Shown here: positions 2,933-26,168 of the stretch, piece after piece
Numbering within the stretch: the stretch's first letter is position 1
How the letters are laid out: each line of letters starts with the position of its first letter
DNA from: a virus
Virus record (IMG/VR): IMGVR_UViG_3300021363_000012
Location: 1 to 39,096 of that record
Strand: one strand, 5' to 3'
DNA length: 39,096 bases
Notes under the pieces: generated by a model
Told to the model about the DNA's origin: nothing
Database searches by the model: none
The model's input: only the letters and a program-made list of their open reading frames with translations
Made by a program: the position numbers and the translations under genes

Positions 2933-3616
2933 ATGAAAAAGCGGATTATTCCAGGTAGAAGATACAACCGTTTGATTGTAATAGAAAAAATCGGAAATCG
3001 TCTCTGGAAATGTTTATGCGATTGTGGAGAATATTTAAAGGTAGGCACATCTCAACTTGGAAGGCAAAAACACTGTCAATATGAATATAGATTGTCTGAT
3101 GAAAAATATCATGAAAAATTAAGAAAAAACTTTAAGGAAAAGTATATAAAAAAAAATGAATGTTGGGAATGGAATAAGTGTGTCCCAAAACATGGATATG
3201 GAGTAACGGGCTATCGTAGAAAATCAATATTGGCTCATAGACTTTCTTGGTTTTTATTCAAGGGAATTATTCCAGACGGAATAGATGTTTGCCATCACTG
3301 TGACAACCCAAAATGCGTTAATCCAAATCATTTGTTTTTAGGAACTGCCAAAGACAATGTAAAAGATTGTTTTAGTAAAAACAGAAAATCACACAAAGGC
3401 GAAAAGCATCCTGGAGCAAAAATTAAAGGACAGGATGTTAAAGAGATATTCGAATTAAGAAAAAACGGTTGGACTCATCAAAAATTAGCTGATAGATTCA
3501 AATTAACTCAATCAACCGTCAACAATATACTTCACAGACGGCTCTGGAAACACATCGATTTAGGTGAGATATGGCAGGATTTAGTGAATGGCTCTTCGGA
3601 AGCCCAGACAAATTGA
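2933..3616 (+). CDS. HNH homing endonuclease with C-terminal helix-turn-helix
   Basis: This 227-residue protein has the usual layout of phage free-standing HNH enzymes. A short N-terminal zinc-binding module (C-L-C-D-C-G, then C near residue 45) is followed by an HNH_3 core at about residues 95-140. The core shows A-H-R-L-S-W, then C-H-H-C-D-N-P-K-C-V-N-P-N-H-L-F, with the catalytic histidine pair and zinc cysteines present. A helix-turn-helix at about 165-210 (K-L-A-D-R-F-K-L-T-Q-S-T-V) probably binds DNA. AGTGAGG lies upstream of the ATG. The last 46 bases overlap the next structural gene, so the insertion sits tightly between virion genes. It is more AT-rich than its neighbours, as expected for a mobile gene. 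Confidence 0.92.
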   Translation: MKKRIIPGRRYNRLIVIEKIGNRLWKCLCDCGEYLKVGTSQLGRQKHCQYEYRLSDEKYHEKLRKNFKEKYIKKNECWEWNKCVPKHGYGVTGYRRKSILAHRLSWFLFKGIIPDGIDVCHHCDNPKCVNPNHLFLGTAKDNVKDCFSKNRKSHKGEKHPGAKIKGQDVKEIFELRKNGWTHQKLADRFKLTQSTVNNILHRRLWKHIDLGEIWQDLVNGSSEAQTN

Positions 3617-4233
3617 ATAAAGTTCCGACTGGGACGCCGCAGCAAGAACAGTTACATAATCAAATTCTTTCTCAAGCCATGGGAATGTCTCAAAATGGTG
3701 GTGGTTATAATAGGGCGCAGGACTATTACAGCAATCTCTTGGGACCAAACCAACAGGAAGCCTATAATCAATTCTCACAGCCATATTTGCAACAATTCCA
3801 GGAACAAATGCTTCCTCAGATAGCTGAAAGATTTGCTGGTGCCGGTGCTCTCTCTTCAAGTGGCTTTGGTCAGGCTCTAGGCGGGGCAACTTCTAATCTT
3901 CAATCTCAATTGGCACAACTTTTCTCTCAACTCCAAGGCCAAGCGGCAGGAGCACAGACAAATCAGTTCAACCAATTGTCTCAGAATGGGCTGAATTATC
4001 AACCATTTGCCTACAATCAGGAAGAAGGTTCCCAAGGATTCTTAGGCCCACTTATGGGTGGACTTGCCGGAGCTTTAGGAGGCCCTCTTGGTTCGGCTTT
4101 AGGCTCTGGGATAGGGAGCGGCATTAGTAGTCTGTTTAAAAATTCTCAACAAAATTCTGGACTCACACGCAGAGGAATTGATTCACTGTTTAAAAATATA
4201 AACAGGAATGAAAAATATGGGGGAATAGGTTAA
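3571..4233 (+). CDS. Probable internal virion / DNA ejection protein, Gly- and Gln-rich
   Basis: This 220-residue protein has a Gln/Asn-rich helical first half. Near residues 150-185 is a Gly/Leu/Ala-rich hydrophobic stretch (F-L-G-P-L-M-G-G-L-A-G-A-L-G-G-P-L-G) that could insert into or cross a membrane. Such stretches occur in podoviral ejection proteins that form a DNA conduit through the envelope. The ATG lies inside the 3' end of the HNH gene, with AGGTGAG 6 bases upstream, so its translation signal is embedded in the endonuclease gene. The stop overlaps the next start (TAATG), indicating coupling. The role comes from position and composition, not from a recognised family. Confidence 0.72.
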   Translation: MAGFSEWLFGSPDKLNKVPTGTPQQEQLHNQILSQAMGMSQNGGGYNRAQDYYSNLLGPNQQEAYNQFSQPYLQQFQEQMLPQIAERFAGAGALSSSGFGQALGGATSNLQSQLAQLFSQLQGQAAGAQTNQFNQLSQNGLNYQPFAYNQEEGSQGFLGPLMGGLAGALGGPLGSALGSGIGSGISSLFKNSQQNSGLTRRGIDSLFKNINRNEKYGGIG

Positions 4234-5501
4234 TGCCTCAATATATTAAATCGGGAAATCCACAGGGGAAATTATCAGAAATGCTCGGAATGAGTCTTGG
4301 TCAAGGTCTAGGCAGCGGACTAAATACTTTTTTCGCTAATAGAAGCTTAGACAGCGTTTTACATGACAAGGCTCTAGAAGGCGCACCGCAAAGTAAGAAA
4401 TTAGAAGCACTTCGATCGGCATTGAGTCCTTATGGCGAAAAGGGACAAGAGATATTTCAACAAAGAATGCAAATTGAACAGCAGGAAATGAACGAGCAAC
4501 AACAAGACGTTCTAGGGCGCGTTGTAGAGGGCCAAAAGGTGCCAGCCAAGGACTTAGCCAAGCTCAGCCCAGAAAATCAATTGAAGGTCATGCAAATACA
4601 GAAAAACCGACAAATCGGGCGTTCTGTCTATGATTCCCTAATTAAGGCCGGTTATCCTGAAGATACTGCAAAAATATGGCAGAATCAGATGGAAAATGCT
4701 CCAACAGGGGGCCAAAGCGACGTAATTAGAAATGTAAATGATTTGATTCGTAGGTCTAAATCTGGGAAGGGATTAACGGGGCCAGATCAAGCAACGCCAC
4801 AAACGGCGCCAAACATTGACATACCTGGCACAAACCTAGGTGCATTGCCTCTTGACTTTCCTGAATTGCCAGAACCAGCAGGCGTCACTCCGGCAGACAT
4901 GGTGCGTCAAAATGAGTACAGAGAAAAGACAAATACGCCTCTATATAACGAAACTGTCGATCGATTAAATGCTCTTGACGATGAGTATCGCGAAGTCAAG
5001 CACTTGCAGGATTTGAATGAAACTCCAGGGGCGTTGCCAACAGGTGCGGAAAAGTGGAACGTCGATTGGGAATCAGGGGATTTGCGCGTCAAGGCTCTCG
5101 CAACACCTGAAGCACAAGATTATGCCAAAACGATTGCACGTATGGCTAGACGGGCTAAGGACTTCTTTCCAGGCCGTGTGACTAACTTCGACTTGGATCA
5201 ATTCAAACAAGGTTTTCCAACACTAGCAAACAGCCCTGAAGGTCGTCGTCTTATCGCAGAGCAGCTTGCCCTGGGAAATCGCATTGCCTACCTCAAGGAT
5301 GAAACTTTTAAGGCAGCCATGGATCACTATGGGTCAGGCGCCGATCCCGTCTTGGTCAAAAAGTATGCTACTGAGAATTATAGAAAATTGAAATCTCAAT
5401 TGGAAGATCAATTGAAAAGTGTTAATGCCCAAGCCAGATCCAAGGTTGAACAAGATGGCGGCAAAACAGCTCGCCCTTCATTAGATGAGTTGTTGGAATG
5501 A
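4233..5501 (+). CDS. Probable internal virion / ejection protein, coiled coil
   Basis: This 422-residue protein is largely helical, with Gln/Glu-rich coiled-coil segments near residues 70-130 and 350-410. A Pro-rich linker near 185-225 separates N- and C-terminal halves. There is no signal peptide or membrane segment. It sits second in a block of three overlapping genes (TAATG at its start, ATGA at its end), the usual arrangement for podoviral ejection proteins such as P22 gp7, gp20 and gp16. I did not recognise a specific family; the role is inferred. Confidence 0.7.
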   Translation: MPQYIKSGNPQGKLSEMLGMSLGQGLGSGLNTFFANRSLDSVLHDKALEGAPQSKKLEALRSALSPYGEKGQEIFQQRMQIEQQEMNEQQQDVLGRVVEGQKVPAKDLAKLSPENQLKVMQIQKNRQIGRSVYDSLIKAGYPEDTAKIWQNQMENAPTGGQSDVIRNVNDLIRRSKSGKGLTGPDQATPQTAPNIDIPGTNLGALPLDFPELPEPAGVTPADMVRQNEYREKTNTPLYNETVDRLNALDDEYREVKHLQDLNETPGALPTGAEKWNVDWESGDLRVKALATPEAQDYAKTIARMARRAKDFFPGRVTNFDLDQFKQGFPTLANSPEGRRLIAEQLALGNRIAYLKDETFKAAMDHYGSGADPVLVKKYATENYRKLKSQLEDQLKSVNAQARSKVEQDGGKTARPSLDELLE

Positions 5502-22779: not shown

Positions 22780-22965
22780 ATGAACGAACTCACGGTTATT
22801 TTAAAAGATAGTTCAAGAACATATAAGCAAGAATTTACTATTTACGAAGTTTATACAGCGTCTCCCGATGATCCTCAAGTTAGAAAATGCATTGATCAAG
22901 CCAAGAAGAACTTTATCGGGGAACCTGATCGTATTTTAATTCGCATTGACTTTGAGGTAGAATGA
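22780..22965 (+). CDS. Small protein of unknown function
   Basis: This 61-residue protein (L-T-V-I-L-K-D-S-S-R-T-Y-K-Q-E-F-T-I-Y, R-I-L-I-R-I-D-F-E-V) looks like a small alpha/beta domain. Its stop overlaps the small terminase start (ATGATG), so it is co-translated with packaging genes. Unrecognised. Confidence 0.62.
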   Translation: MNELTVILKDSSRTYKQEFTIYEVYTASPDDPQVRKCIDQAKKNFIGEPDRILIRIDFEVE

Positions 22966-23393
22966 TGGTTAGACCTAGAGAGTTTTCTTATCCCCCTGAA
23001 AAGATGATTGAGCTTGGTAAGGAAATGGTCGACTATGTAAAACAAAATAAAGAAACAATTCTGCATCTTTGCGAGTGGTATACGATCGAAAAGGGGTATA
23101 CTTATAACGAATGGAAAACATTCATCCAGAGAGCCGAGTTCGTTCCCTATTACGAGCAAGCTCTTAAGATTATAGGACTAAAGTATGTTGATAAAAACAG
23201 CAACGTCAGGGACAAAATCTCGGACAGATGGCAAAGGATCTACTTTGGCGACCTCAGAGAAGGCGAAGACAAAGACGCCGATGATAACGAGCTTCGCAAA
23301 GCTTCCGCCCTTAAAGGGGAAGCTAGAGCCCTTGAGCAAGAAAGAATCAAAGTCATCGAAGAAGTTCAAAGAAGTAAAAGAAAGCTGAAATAA
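22962..23393 (+). CDS. terS: Putative terminase small subunit
   Basis: This 143-residue helical protein lies directly before the large terminase. The N-terminal half has helices with W-Y-T-I-E-K-G-Y-T-Y-N-E-W-K-T-F-I, resembling the DNA-binding helix-turn-helix of small terminases. The middle carries D-K-I-S-D-R-W-Q-R-I-Y-F-G, and the C-terminal third is a charged coiled coil (A-R-A-L-E-Q-E-R-I-K-V-I-E-E-V). In P22-like phages this subunit selects the packaging start on concatemers. Assignment rests mainly on position and architecture. Confidence 0.72.
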   Translation: MMVRPREFSYPPEKMIELGKEMVDYVKQNKETILHLCEWYTIEKGYTYNEWKTFIQRAEFVPYYEQALKIIGLKYVDKNSNVRDKISDRWQRIYFGDLREGEDKDADDNELRKASALKGEARALEQERIKVIEEVQRSKRKLK

Positions 23394-23448
23394 TTTTTCG
23401 GCTCAAGTCCACTCCGTGGATGCCTCACGGCACCGAGGCTAACATTTT

Positions 23449-23476
23449 TGTCAATTTAACGCAAACGCATCACAAT
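23449..23476 (+). promoter_or_regulatory. Predicted promoter before the large terminase, containing a repeated 14-base element
   Basis: TTGTCA begins at 23448, followed by a 17-base spacer and CACAAT (23471-23476). The spacer starts with ATTTAACGCAAACG (23454-23467), which is identical to 18351-18364 just before the Cro-like gene. The shared 14-mer suggests a common factor acting at both control points. Confidence 0.45.
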
Positions 23477-23491
23477 ACTAGAAGCATTAAG

Positions 23492-23591
23492 GGTTGTTAC
23501 GTCGCATAGGTAAGATAGTCCTAATGAGCGGGACAAAAGGTGAATAAGAAAAATGAATATCCTTTGTAAGAGTGCAAGTCTCTTGGCAACC
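23492..23591 (+). ncRNA. Compact multi-branched RNA structure between small and large terminase genes
   Basis: The outer stem GGTTG/CAACC (23492-23496 with 23587-23591) closes a chain of hairpins that use most of the bases between: TTAC/GTAA (23497-23513), GTCC/GGAC (23518-23534), AAAGG/CCTTT (23536-23565) and AAGAG/CTCTT (23568-23584). No good coding frame covers the 224-base gap, and the terminase start follows 27 bases later. A further CCGTG/CACGG hairpin sits at 23415-23431. It may be a regulatory leader, a packaging-related RNA or an intron remnant. Bases AAGATAGTCC recall the group I S element, but other core elements are missing. Confidence 0.5.
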
Positions 23592-23617
23592 ATCTATAAA
23601 ATAACCAAGGCCAAATC

Positions 23618-24310
23618 TTGAGCGAAGAATATATACCCACTCAAGAAGAATTAAACGATAAGCTGTGGCGCCTAACCCACCTCTATTACATTACCAACAA
23701 ATCCGGCCAGGAAGTCCTGTTCAATCTCAATTGGGCTCAACAAGAGCTGTATCATAAGGAATGGCATCAAATGCTTGTCCTAAAGGCTCGGCAGCTTGGC
23801 GTTACAACGTACTTTTCAATTAATTTCTTAGACGATTGTTTTTGGCATCCTAATACCAACGCAGGCATTATTGCACATAGGAAAGAAGACGCCGAACAAA
23901 TCTTCAAACAAAAGGTAAAGTATGCCTACGACAGAATGCCCCTGTGGACGAGAGCTTTTAACAGCGCAACAAATGACAGAGCTGGAGAACTCGCTTTCGA
24001 AAACGGATCTAGTTATCGGGTCTCTACTGGGTTTCGCTCTGGTACTTACCAGCGCCTGCTCGTGTCCGAATTCGGGAAAATATGCGCAAAGTCACCTGAT
24101 GTTGCTAAAGAAATTGTCACAGGCTCACTCAACACTGTCTCAGCAGATCAAGTTATTGCTATTGAATCAACGGCCGAGGGGAGAGAGGGATACTTCTATG
24201 ACTTCTGTAAGAGAGCGGAAGAAATGCAATTGTCAGGAAAAAAGCTAACCAAAATGGATATGAGGTTTTTTTTCTTTCCTTGGTATGAAGAAGAATCGTA
24301 TAGGATTTGA
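23618..24310 (+). CDS. terL: Terminase large subunit, N-terminal ATPase half (split gene)
   Basis: This 230-residue protein contains only the packaging ATPase domain. An adenine-binding-type N-W-A-Q-Q lies near residue 38; a Walker A variant K-A-R-Q-L-G-V-T-T at 56-64; a Walker B region R-L-L-V-S-E-F near 146; and the coupling motif I-E-S-T-A-E-G at 182-188. It stops after [10 protein letters not shown], where intact terminases continue into the nuclease domain. That domain is encoded separately at 24914 after an HNH gene. The start is TTG with AAGG 7 bases upstream; an in-frame stop lies just before. The two halves sum to 507 residues, the normal length of a full large terminase. Confidence 0.92.
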
Positions 24311-24336
24311 TTCATGAATACCGTATAATACCAGTT

Positions 24337-24933
24337 ATGAAAATATGCAAAAACTGCTCTACTCAATTTGAATCTACACTCACAAGAAAGATATTCTGTA
24401 ATCGCCGATGCAAAGAAAAGTATTACAATAGGGTGCAGTATGAACAGCAAAGAAAGAAGTTTAACAGGAGTACTATTGTTGCAAATACATGCAGAATCTG
24501 TCAAAAAGAATGCAACAATTTGGCAGTCAATGATGCATTGTGCAAGCGATGTTATGCCTATGTTTTTCATATGAAAGAAAAAGGACTGCCTACGGACACA
24601 CAGAGTGTTTTAGATCATAGGGAATATCAACGAACCAGAGAGAAAAAGCATTATAACGGTGACGGATATGTTGTTTTGCATAAGAAGGGACATCCCAATG
24701 CCATGAAATATGGGCGTATTTGCGAGCACACATTTGTTATGTCTGAGCATTTAGGAAGACCTATAAAAGACAAAGAAACCGTACATCATAAGAATGGGAT
24801 TCGAGACGACAATCGAATTGAGAATTTAGAACTTTGGGGACATTCTCATCCATATGGACAAAGGATTGAAGATAAGGTTGAATGGGCAATTTCATTTTTA
24901 AAGGAGTACGGATATGTCGTTTCCAGAGACTAG
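24337..24933 (+). CDS. HNH homing endonuclease interrupting the large terminase gene
   Basis: This 198-residue protein starts with two zinc-ribbon-like motifs (C-K-N-C ... F-C-N-R-R-C and C-R-I-C ... C-K-R-C). The HNH core at about residues 120-180 follows: [42 protein letters not shown]. Catalytic His pair and Asn are present. It fills nearly all the space between the terminase halves, leaving no room for a normal group I intron outside the frame. It therefore looks like an intronless insertion, as known for mobE in phage Aeh1 nrdA. Its 3' end holds the ribosome site for the nuclease half. Confidence 0.92.
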
Positions 24934-25747
24934 CATAATTGTTTCCAAGGAAATCAATGAATACCTAGATCATATCGAAATCGAACGTCAAAGAAAGATT
25001 GACGAAGATCAGAGACGATGGTATGAAATGAAGCAGCGCATGCTCGGACAAGAGATGATGCGACAAGAATACCCCTCAACGCCAAAGGAGGCTTTTGAAA
25101 GTGCGAACGAAGGTCTTTATTACGGTACTCAGCTCAGCAAATTGCGTGCTCTCGGGAATGTGTGCAGGGTTCCCTACGACGATAGTACACCTGTCCATAC
25201 CGCTTGGGACATTGGTCTTGACGACTTTACTTCAATATTTTGTTTTCAAGTGGGACGCGGCGGCGCGGTCTCGATTATAAACTTTTACGAAAACTGGGAC
25301 GAAGGAGCAGCTCATTACTGTGATTGGCTTAATAAACAAAAATACCGCTTTGGACGTCATATCTTCCCTCATGATGCGAGAAAAAGAGACGCTGGAGCTA
25401 AGACGCAATATCTCGACTTTGTTACGCCAAACCTCGAAGGCAAGTTTGTCGTATTGGATATCAAAGAATGTGACAAACTGGAAGGTATCCAAACGGTACG
25501 ATCTATGCTATCGCGTTGTGTATTCGATGAAGAAAAAACGGCGAAGGCTATTAGACACCTTGAGGCTTACAAAAAGGTTTGGGATGATCGACTCGGATGC
25601 TATAAAAACACACCGCTACACGATGAACATAGCCATGCCGCAGATGCGTTCCGTTACTTGGCCGTCGGTCTTAAGGGGCTTGAGCGAAAAGACAATAGCA
25701 GCGCAGAAAACGATTTGAAGGCAGTGAATAGGTATTACGGCGTATGA
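24914..25747 (+). CDS. terL: Terminase large subunit, C-terminal nuclease half (split gene)
   Basis: This 277-residue protein begins with the linker normally joining ATPase and nuclease ([18 protein letters not shown] at 53-61). It then carries the RNase H-like nuclease: D-I-G-L-D-D near 99-104, H-D-A-R-K-R-D near 153-159, and [13 protein letters not shown] near 236-248 with the last catalytic Asp. The ATG has AAGGAG 7 bases upstream, inside the HNH gene, so it can be made as a separate chain. It overlaps the HNH stop by 20 bases. All nuclease acids are present, so it appears functional if it can pair with the ATPase half. Confidence 0.92.
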
Positions 25748-25935
25748 TCGACAAAGAAAAGTGGCTCAAAGTTTTTACCACCAAACAGGATTGCGATTAT
25801 TGCGACAGAAAAAAGCAAACCATTATGTACGCCGTTGTACGGCCAATTTATTTATGGAAAGACGACAAAATGATAATCGCCAATATCAGTGTAGCTAAAA
25901 AGTGTATGAAATGCATCGAGGAGGAAAGCGAATGA
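25744..25935 (+). CDS. Small zinc-ribbon-like protein
   Basis: This 63-residue protein is coupled to the terminase stop (ATGA overlap). It has C-D-Y-C-D-R near residue 17 and C-M-K-C near 56, a CxxC...CxxC pair that could hold one zinc ion. The stretch between is beta-rich. Function unknown; it opens a run of about ten small coupled genes between terminase and portal. Confidence 0.68.
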   Translation: MIDKEKWLKVFTTKQDCDYCDRKKQTIMYAVVRPIYLWKDDKMIIANISVAKKCMKCIEEESE

Positions 25936-26168
25936 CAACACCGCAAGCAACCTTACAAAACCTTGAATATCGAATAAGAAGGATTTCCGAGCTTCTTGAA
26001 GGCAACGAGCATACCGGTGACATTACAGAGATATTGGCGCAAATGGAGCTGCAAAATGACGATATCATGGCGAGCCAACAGAGGCTTGAGAATCTTATGA
26101 ATTTGATTGTGAAATTCCTGAGTAGAGAAGATGTGGCGCAAAGTTGCGTCAAAAAGGAGACATTATGA
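25932..26168 (+). CDS. Small coiled-coil protein, paralogue A
   Basis: This 78-residue protein has GAGGAGG before an ATGA start/stop overlap. It is a long helix pair: T-P-Q-A-T-L-Q-N-L-E-Y-R-I-R-R-I-S-E-L-L-E and A-S-Q-Q-R-L-E-N-L-M-N-L-I-V. The product of 26714-26917 shares the same order of residues (Q-A-T-L, L-L-E, Q-x-R-x-E-x-L-x-x-x-I-V), so the two are paralogues. Function unknown. Confidence 0.68.
   Translation: MTTPQATLQNLEYRIRRISELLEGNEHTGDITEILAQMELQNDDIMASQQRLENLMNLIVKFLSREDVAQSCVKKETL

Follow-up and report, generated by a model that had tools for sequence, protein, structure and literature searches.

An HNH endonuclease gene splits a phage large terminase gene between the ATPase core and the lid, probably leaving a two-chain packaging motor

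The large terminase gene (terL) of an IMG/VR virus record of 39,096 bp, which is referred to at its full length as the window, was analysed. The gene is interrupted by an HNH endonuclease gene that entered without an identifiable intron, and it is predicted to be read as two polypeptides; the best overall explanation is that these two chains probably assemble into a working packaging motor. The evidence leans, less firmly, towards a broader reading in which a packaging ATPase can operate with its force-transmitting lid in trans, this state having been made by endonucleases on at least three occasions in the same place and having become permanent in one lineage, where the gap hosts cargo genes.

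Anatomy of the interrupted gene

The features of the interrupted gene in the window are as follows.

23618-24310, + strand: TerL chain A, ASCE (RecA-like) ATPase core, 230 aa, TTG start; intact relatives are collinear
23780-23809, + strand: Walker A-type motif, chain A residues 55-64; K56, R58, Q59, G61 and T64 are invariant in the family alignment
24068-24070, + strand: catalytic-glutamate position E151 (VSEFGK) of chain A, an invariant column
24164-24175, + strand: coupling-motif-like ESTA, chain A residues 183-186; columns E183-A186 are invariant
24305-24925, + strand: inserted DNA, ~621 nt, running from the R229 codon to the retained 3' flank, placed by junction comparison with intact relatives
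24337-24933, + strand: HNH homing-type endonuclease gene, 198 aa from the ATG, 208 aa from the TTG at 24307
24727-24837, + strand: HNH_3 catalytic core, Pfam match to residues 141-177 of the ORF from 24307
24901-24906, + strand: AAGGAG ribosome-binding site for chain B, within the HNH coding sequence
24914-25747, + strand: TerL chain B, ATPase lid, linker and nuclease, 277 aa, ATG start
24914-25102, + strand: predicted lid part of the ATPase domain, chain B residues ~1-63, with helices 12-25, 31-44 and 46-52
25103-25690, + strand: RNase H-like TerL nuclease domain, chain B residues ~64-259, with WDIG, FPHD and HAADAFR

Chain A matched the terminase families phrog_26724 (2.6e-62) and phrog_2 (5.6e-20), and chain B matched phrog_2472 (1.9e-56). 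This last profile, a single one, crosses the break, covering residues 185-230 of chain A and 12-253 of chain B. The length of phrog_26724 (192 aa) suggests that other terminases may be broken near residue 190. The middle ORF carries an HNH nuclease core (Pfam HNH_3, 8.8e-9, above the Pfam cut-off) and matched phrog_20891 (4.3e-24). The TerL ATPase-core residues K56, E151 and E183-A186 all lie in chain A, and the acidic residues of the TerL nuclease, D99, D154 and D244 of chain B, are likewise invariant.

The HNH ORF extends over 24307-24933, and the ATG at 24337 is the more likely start, although no clear SD precedes it. Its frame differs from that of terL, chain A closes with a stop at 24308, and the HNH frame takes up all of the insert except ~32 nt at the 5' end. 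Ten in-frame stops separate the two halves, and terL resumes 603 nt past the chain A stop, the last HNH codons overlapping terL DNA and the HNH stop codon lying within it. The AAGGAG sits 7 nt upstream of the ATG of chain B, both inside the final HNH codons, so that the endonuclease gene provides the restart for the gene broken by it. In L052, another split contig, the ATG of the nuclease half begins at the second base of the tyrosine codon in the HNH C-terminal ...EYGY. SD-like sequence was also present upstream of chain B in the split sequences L033, L034 and L092, and was weaker in L052 and L032.

The initial annotation of this DNA had described an intronless endonuclease insertion producing two separate polypeptides of 230 and 277 aa that keep their catalytic motifs, the second with its own AAGGAG and ATG inside the HNH gene, and had seen no room for a group I intron. 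The arrangement given above is in accordance with this description, as far as the sequence can tell.

Position of the break in the protein

There was no TerL structure close in sequence, and a fold comparison was therefore used, in which an AlphaFold model of the intact relative L048 (mean pLDDT 82) was aligned to solved terminases. The ATPase domains of T4 gp17 and P74-26 cover the model from residue 1 or 13 to 288-296, the nuclease domains of SPP1, RB49 and G20c cover it from 291 or 293 to 480-486, and DEAD-box cores cover residues 14 to 219-222. The break follows residue 229, in the loop preceding helices 239-252, 258-278 and 283-288. The model thus puts it where the ASCE core gives way to the lid, ~60 residues short of the boundary between ATPase and nuclease. 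The HNH gene had been proposed to sit exactly at the domain linker, dividing the protein into an ATPase and a nuclease chain; this was rejected by the structure mapping, which gives the chains as ATPase core and ATPase lid plus nuclease.

A model of window chain B shows the nuclease from residue ~64 and matched residues 234-417 of D6E TerL (VIA Z 17.8, rmsd 2.7, 171 aligned) and the SPP1 G2P nuclease (VIA Z 15.6). These matches of chain B skip residues 1-63, and the lid assignment is therefore drawn from the intact homologue. D6E has the same order of core, lid, 12-residue linker and nuclease (PMC5727402). As the lid is predicted to travel with the nuclease, force would have to be transmitted across a non-covalent joint between core and lid.

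Intact relatives and recurrence of the split

Scans of IMG/VR gave ~30 close relatives with one continuous terL, and the family alignment contained 32 relatives with a single intact gene against six split sequences. The alignment of both halves to intact terminases, suggested beforehand as a check, thus showed 32 relatives reading straight through as one polypeptide, whereas the window is divided by the chain A stop and the new start at 24914. Around the break the intact relatives read ...PWYDEPGYR-ESSESIIV-SKETNEYLD..., and the break of all six split sequences falls in the place of this variable loop of 7-8 residues after 'YR'. The six are the window (with L001/L043), L052/L015, L032, L033, L034 and L092. 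In GenBank phages, three terL neighbourhoods were checked and all were intact, and a spread of 60 of the 463 tblastn hits held no two-piece terL match.

On the maximum-likelihood tree four changes of state are required, and well-supported branches force at least three of these. The window and L052 are placed among intact sequences; L032, L033, L034 and L092 belong to a separate clade in which L091 and L093 are intact sisters. A single ancestral split is rejected by this tree, which needs at least three independent splits, all in the same loop.

Split clade lacking an active HNH gene

In the clade of L032, L033, L034 and L092, chain A ends in YRLK* and the restart lies at MDIV[VI]S[QK]ET or slightly upstream of it. 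The space between the halves is nil in L032 (AAATAATGG), an unrelated 240-bp ORF in L033, ~500 bp in L034 and ~1.35 kb in L092 (L092:1070-2419), the last holding a 296-aa ORF. The L034 gap ORF matches phrog_374 'HNH endonuclease' (4e-23) in two short stretches outside the HNH core and has no Pfam HNH match; it thus looks like the remnant of an HNH-type endonuclease that has lost its nuclease. The split of this clade may have begun with an endonuclease. In the L092 gap ORF a U-box/RING domain (PF04564, 3.8e-7), unusual in a phage, occurs together with glycine-rich segments.

Between members of this clade both halves showed pS of 0.63-0.82 and pN of 0.02-0.10, and the intact pair L091/L093 was alike. 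Both halves are therefore under strong purifying selection, with synonymous divergence near saturation. Such conservation would not be kept by broken halves, and from these substitution patterns the terminase of this clade very probably functions as two chains and can outlive its endonuclease. The selection argument is carried by this clade and not by the window, whose split is too young for a selection test and whose own conservation proves little.

The principal rival explanation is that terL was broken by the HNH gene in a genome that is decaying, or in a dead variant, the halves giving no working terminase. It draws on the fact that a young split retains open frames for a while even without selection, and on the contig L001/L043, in which the arrangement is identical to the window with one base difference over 10.8 kb. 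That sole difference (L001:3836, window 23812) gives TAA for TAC and turns codon 65 of chain A (Y65) into a stop. Relatives carry tyrosine at this codon, so the stop is either derived or erroneous, and a genuine stop would make the L001/L043 copy defective. The same contig, as a second occurrence of the arrangement, makes an assembly chimera in the window unlikely. Against a defective gene, the window copy has open frames and retains every motif, and the amino acid identity of its halves to intact relatives, 83-90%, is nearly that among the intact relatives themselves (85-91%). Portal, major head protein, tail-type and RecE/RecT genes are also present. A working phage with a defective terL would need a second copy, and a protein search of the record, which may be incomplete, with chain B gave a single one. 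The same split is moreover held under purifying selection in the other clade. A dead arrangement is accordingly considered unlikely, and a functional two-chain TerL is preferred.

Splicing and frameshifting

A second alternative keeps TerL as one full-length chain, the insert being an unrecognised intron or its stops being bypassed. The HNH genes of phage terL usually lie in splicing introns, as in Pectobacterium phage CB7 (PMC7344957) and in Bastillevirinae such as SIOphi (PMC11878797), and the terL of ICP1 is likewise spliced, with an endonuclease gene adjoining (PMC10448857). In the window no Rfam intron was matched over 22900-26000, either at the gathering threshold or at E <= 10. This result, the ~32 nt outside the HNH frame and the ten in-frame stops make an intron or intein very unlikely on sequence grounds, an intron being rejected on the missing Rfam match and also on size; the frame of the HNH gene also differs from that of terL. 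Chain B further has its own SD and ATG, and the sister splits carry no insert or unrelated inserts. Cryptic splicing or bypass is thus most improbable, and two separately translated chains remain the favoured reading. A frameshift joining the halves is excluded by length and stops for L033, L034, L092 and the window; it is possible on paper in L032, through its overlap.

A group I core noted by eye upstream of terL (ACTAGA ... AAGATAGTCC, 23474-23521) was rejected, as it had no Rfam match and the extra DNA compared with L011 is only ~150 nt, which is too short.

Insertion and probable homing footprint of the endonuclease

In L052/L015 the insertion occupies the same terL site as in the window, with an HNH protein 41% identical to that of the window. 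L052 and the intact L065 have near-identical genomes locally, and their identity was profiled in 75-nt steps of 150 nt. From the terL start to the insert it runs 99, 94, 88, 85, 87, 85, 80, 79 and 75%; after the insert it runs 95, 93, 92, 82, 92, 96, 97, 97 and 99%, and then 100% for more than 1 kb, the return to 100% lying ~600 bp downstream of the insert. Next to the insert the likeness is no greater than between unrelated family members. The gradient, seen in one contig pair and crossing a loop that belongs to the more variable part of terL, appears co-conversion-like, as would be expected from double-strand-break repair. Uninterrupted alleles are many, and for the window itself such a gradient is unavailable.

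In other phages, relatives of the window HNH gene were found as free-standing genes close to terL, portal or capsid genes. In many viral contigs (L200-L217) they lie in the terL-portal interval or ahead of the major capsid gene, apparently a hot spot for this family. The window also holds, at 2933-3616, a second HNH endonuclease of a different family (phrog_59, 2.2e-29).

That the HNH protein serves the phage in packaging, its gene not being selfish, as proposed for HK97-type proteins, where an HNH protein encoded beside terminase acts with it at the cos site (discussed in PMC10448857), is hardly credible, since the HNH is missing from terL of all intact relatives, its copies in the window and L052 are so dissimilar, its relatives occupy many positions and split relatives live without it.

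Proposed mechanism

For the preferred two-chain TerL the following course is proposed. A free-standing HNH homing endonuclease gene would have entered an exposed variable loop of terL without intron or intein. The 5' end of the insert places a stop just past the ATPase core, and its 3' coding end gives a ribosome-binding site and an ATG, in another frame, for the rest of terL. One transcript would probably yield chain A, the HNH protein and chain B. The HNH protein is presumed to be a nuclease that cleaves DNA, and the insertion would spread into intact terL alleles through repair of the double-strand break. Chains A and B would most likely join non-covalently into a working motor with the lid in trans, and packaging activity is presumed for this assembly. 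After the split the two-chain form may persist, the endonuclease becoming a remnant, absent or replaced by cargo, as the related clade suggests.

Other features near terL and in relatives

A conserved RNA-like element lies just 5' of terL (window 23398-23466; also L011 ~4130-4250 and L004 ~2170-2290), with the layout TTTCGGCTCAAGTCC-hairpin-GATG-hairpin-CACCGAG-AACA(A/T)TTTTGTCAATTTA; the window copy matched no Rfam family. The ~150 nt between this element and terL (23467-23617) are absent from the relatives compared and have tRNA-like pieces (GGTTGTT...GGCAACC, AGAGTGCAAGTCTCT), and ARAGORN found no tRNA there. A promoter scan of the terL region was no better than shuffles.

In L069:5163-5210 (the same contig as L030 and L120; IMGVR_UViG_3300028800_000184) an otherwise normal terL has 45 nt inserted in frame within its Walker A motif. 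The insertion carries a near-perfect long hairpin with an in-frame TGA and repeated CGG codons flanking it (GCACGG[...]TAAATCGG), and its RNA fold has a z of -6. The exact hairpin arms were in no other IMG/VR contig. The layout can be likened to translational bypass elements, of which T4 gene 60 has one. In L074:5001-5735 (also L003) the ATPase part holds an inverted copy of residues 33-132, which is probably an assembly chimera.

Significance

Structure-based packaging models pass the force of ATP hydrolysis via the lid to the nuclease domain in one polypeptide (PMC5727402). A natural motor that is divided at the core-lid junction would, if working, show that the covalent connection is dispensable, and the split TerL would be a ready two-component system for tests of force transmission. 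In the open-access literature no report was found in which terL is split by an intronless endonuclease, and none of a natural split between core and lid. A 2023 survey gives 'at least one instance' of an endonuclease-split functional gene, naming nucleotide reductase (PMC10448857); if the present reading is true, terL joins the very few essential phage genes that endonucleases have split into functional chains. The relatives display possible fates after a split, namely an active gene, a remnant, an empty split and replacement cargo. To annotation pipelines, phages with a split terL appear terminase-less or defective.

Comparison with known systems

The T4, D6E, P74-26 and SPP1 large terminases have the same ATPase and nuclease folds (Z 14-19) in a single chain, whereas in the window the core-lid connection is broken. 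HNH genes in group I introns of terL (CB7, PMC7344957; SIOphi, PMC11878797; splicing in ICP1, PMC10448857) likewise mark terL as a common homing target; those introns are spliced so that one chain is restored, while the window has no recognisable intron core and its second half is predicted to be translated separately. Inteins, as in cyanophage Mic1 TerL (PMC7156551) and MIJ3 PolB (PMC6892783), are also endonuclease-associated insertions in essential genes, but they splice as protein, whereas in the window the HNH and terL frames differ and chain A is closed by a stop.

The T4 topoisomerase genes split by mobA and the split gene 43 of phages 25 and 44RR (PMC2988022) also give two chains through an endonuclease or spacer DNA, in proteins different from TerL. 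Gene 43 of 44RR resembles the HNH-less split state of terL. For gene 43 it is unclear whether the split or the endonuclease came first, whereas the relatives of terL show intact, HNH-split, remnant and empty states.

The likeness to the mobE-split nrdA of Aeh1 (PMC2988022), drawn in the initial annotation, is supported, as in both an intronless HNH-type endonuclease gene lies in an essential gene that is left in two chains. The two Aeh1 polypeptides were shown biochemically to be jointly active, which we infer for TerL. The Aeh1 protein is a ribonucleotide reductase and not a motor, and terL, unlike nrdA, is split repeatedly at one site, with one split lineage that has no active endonuclease.
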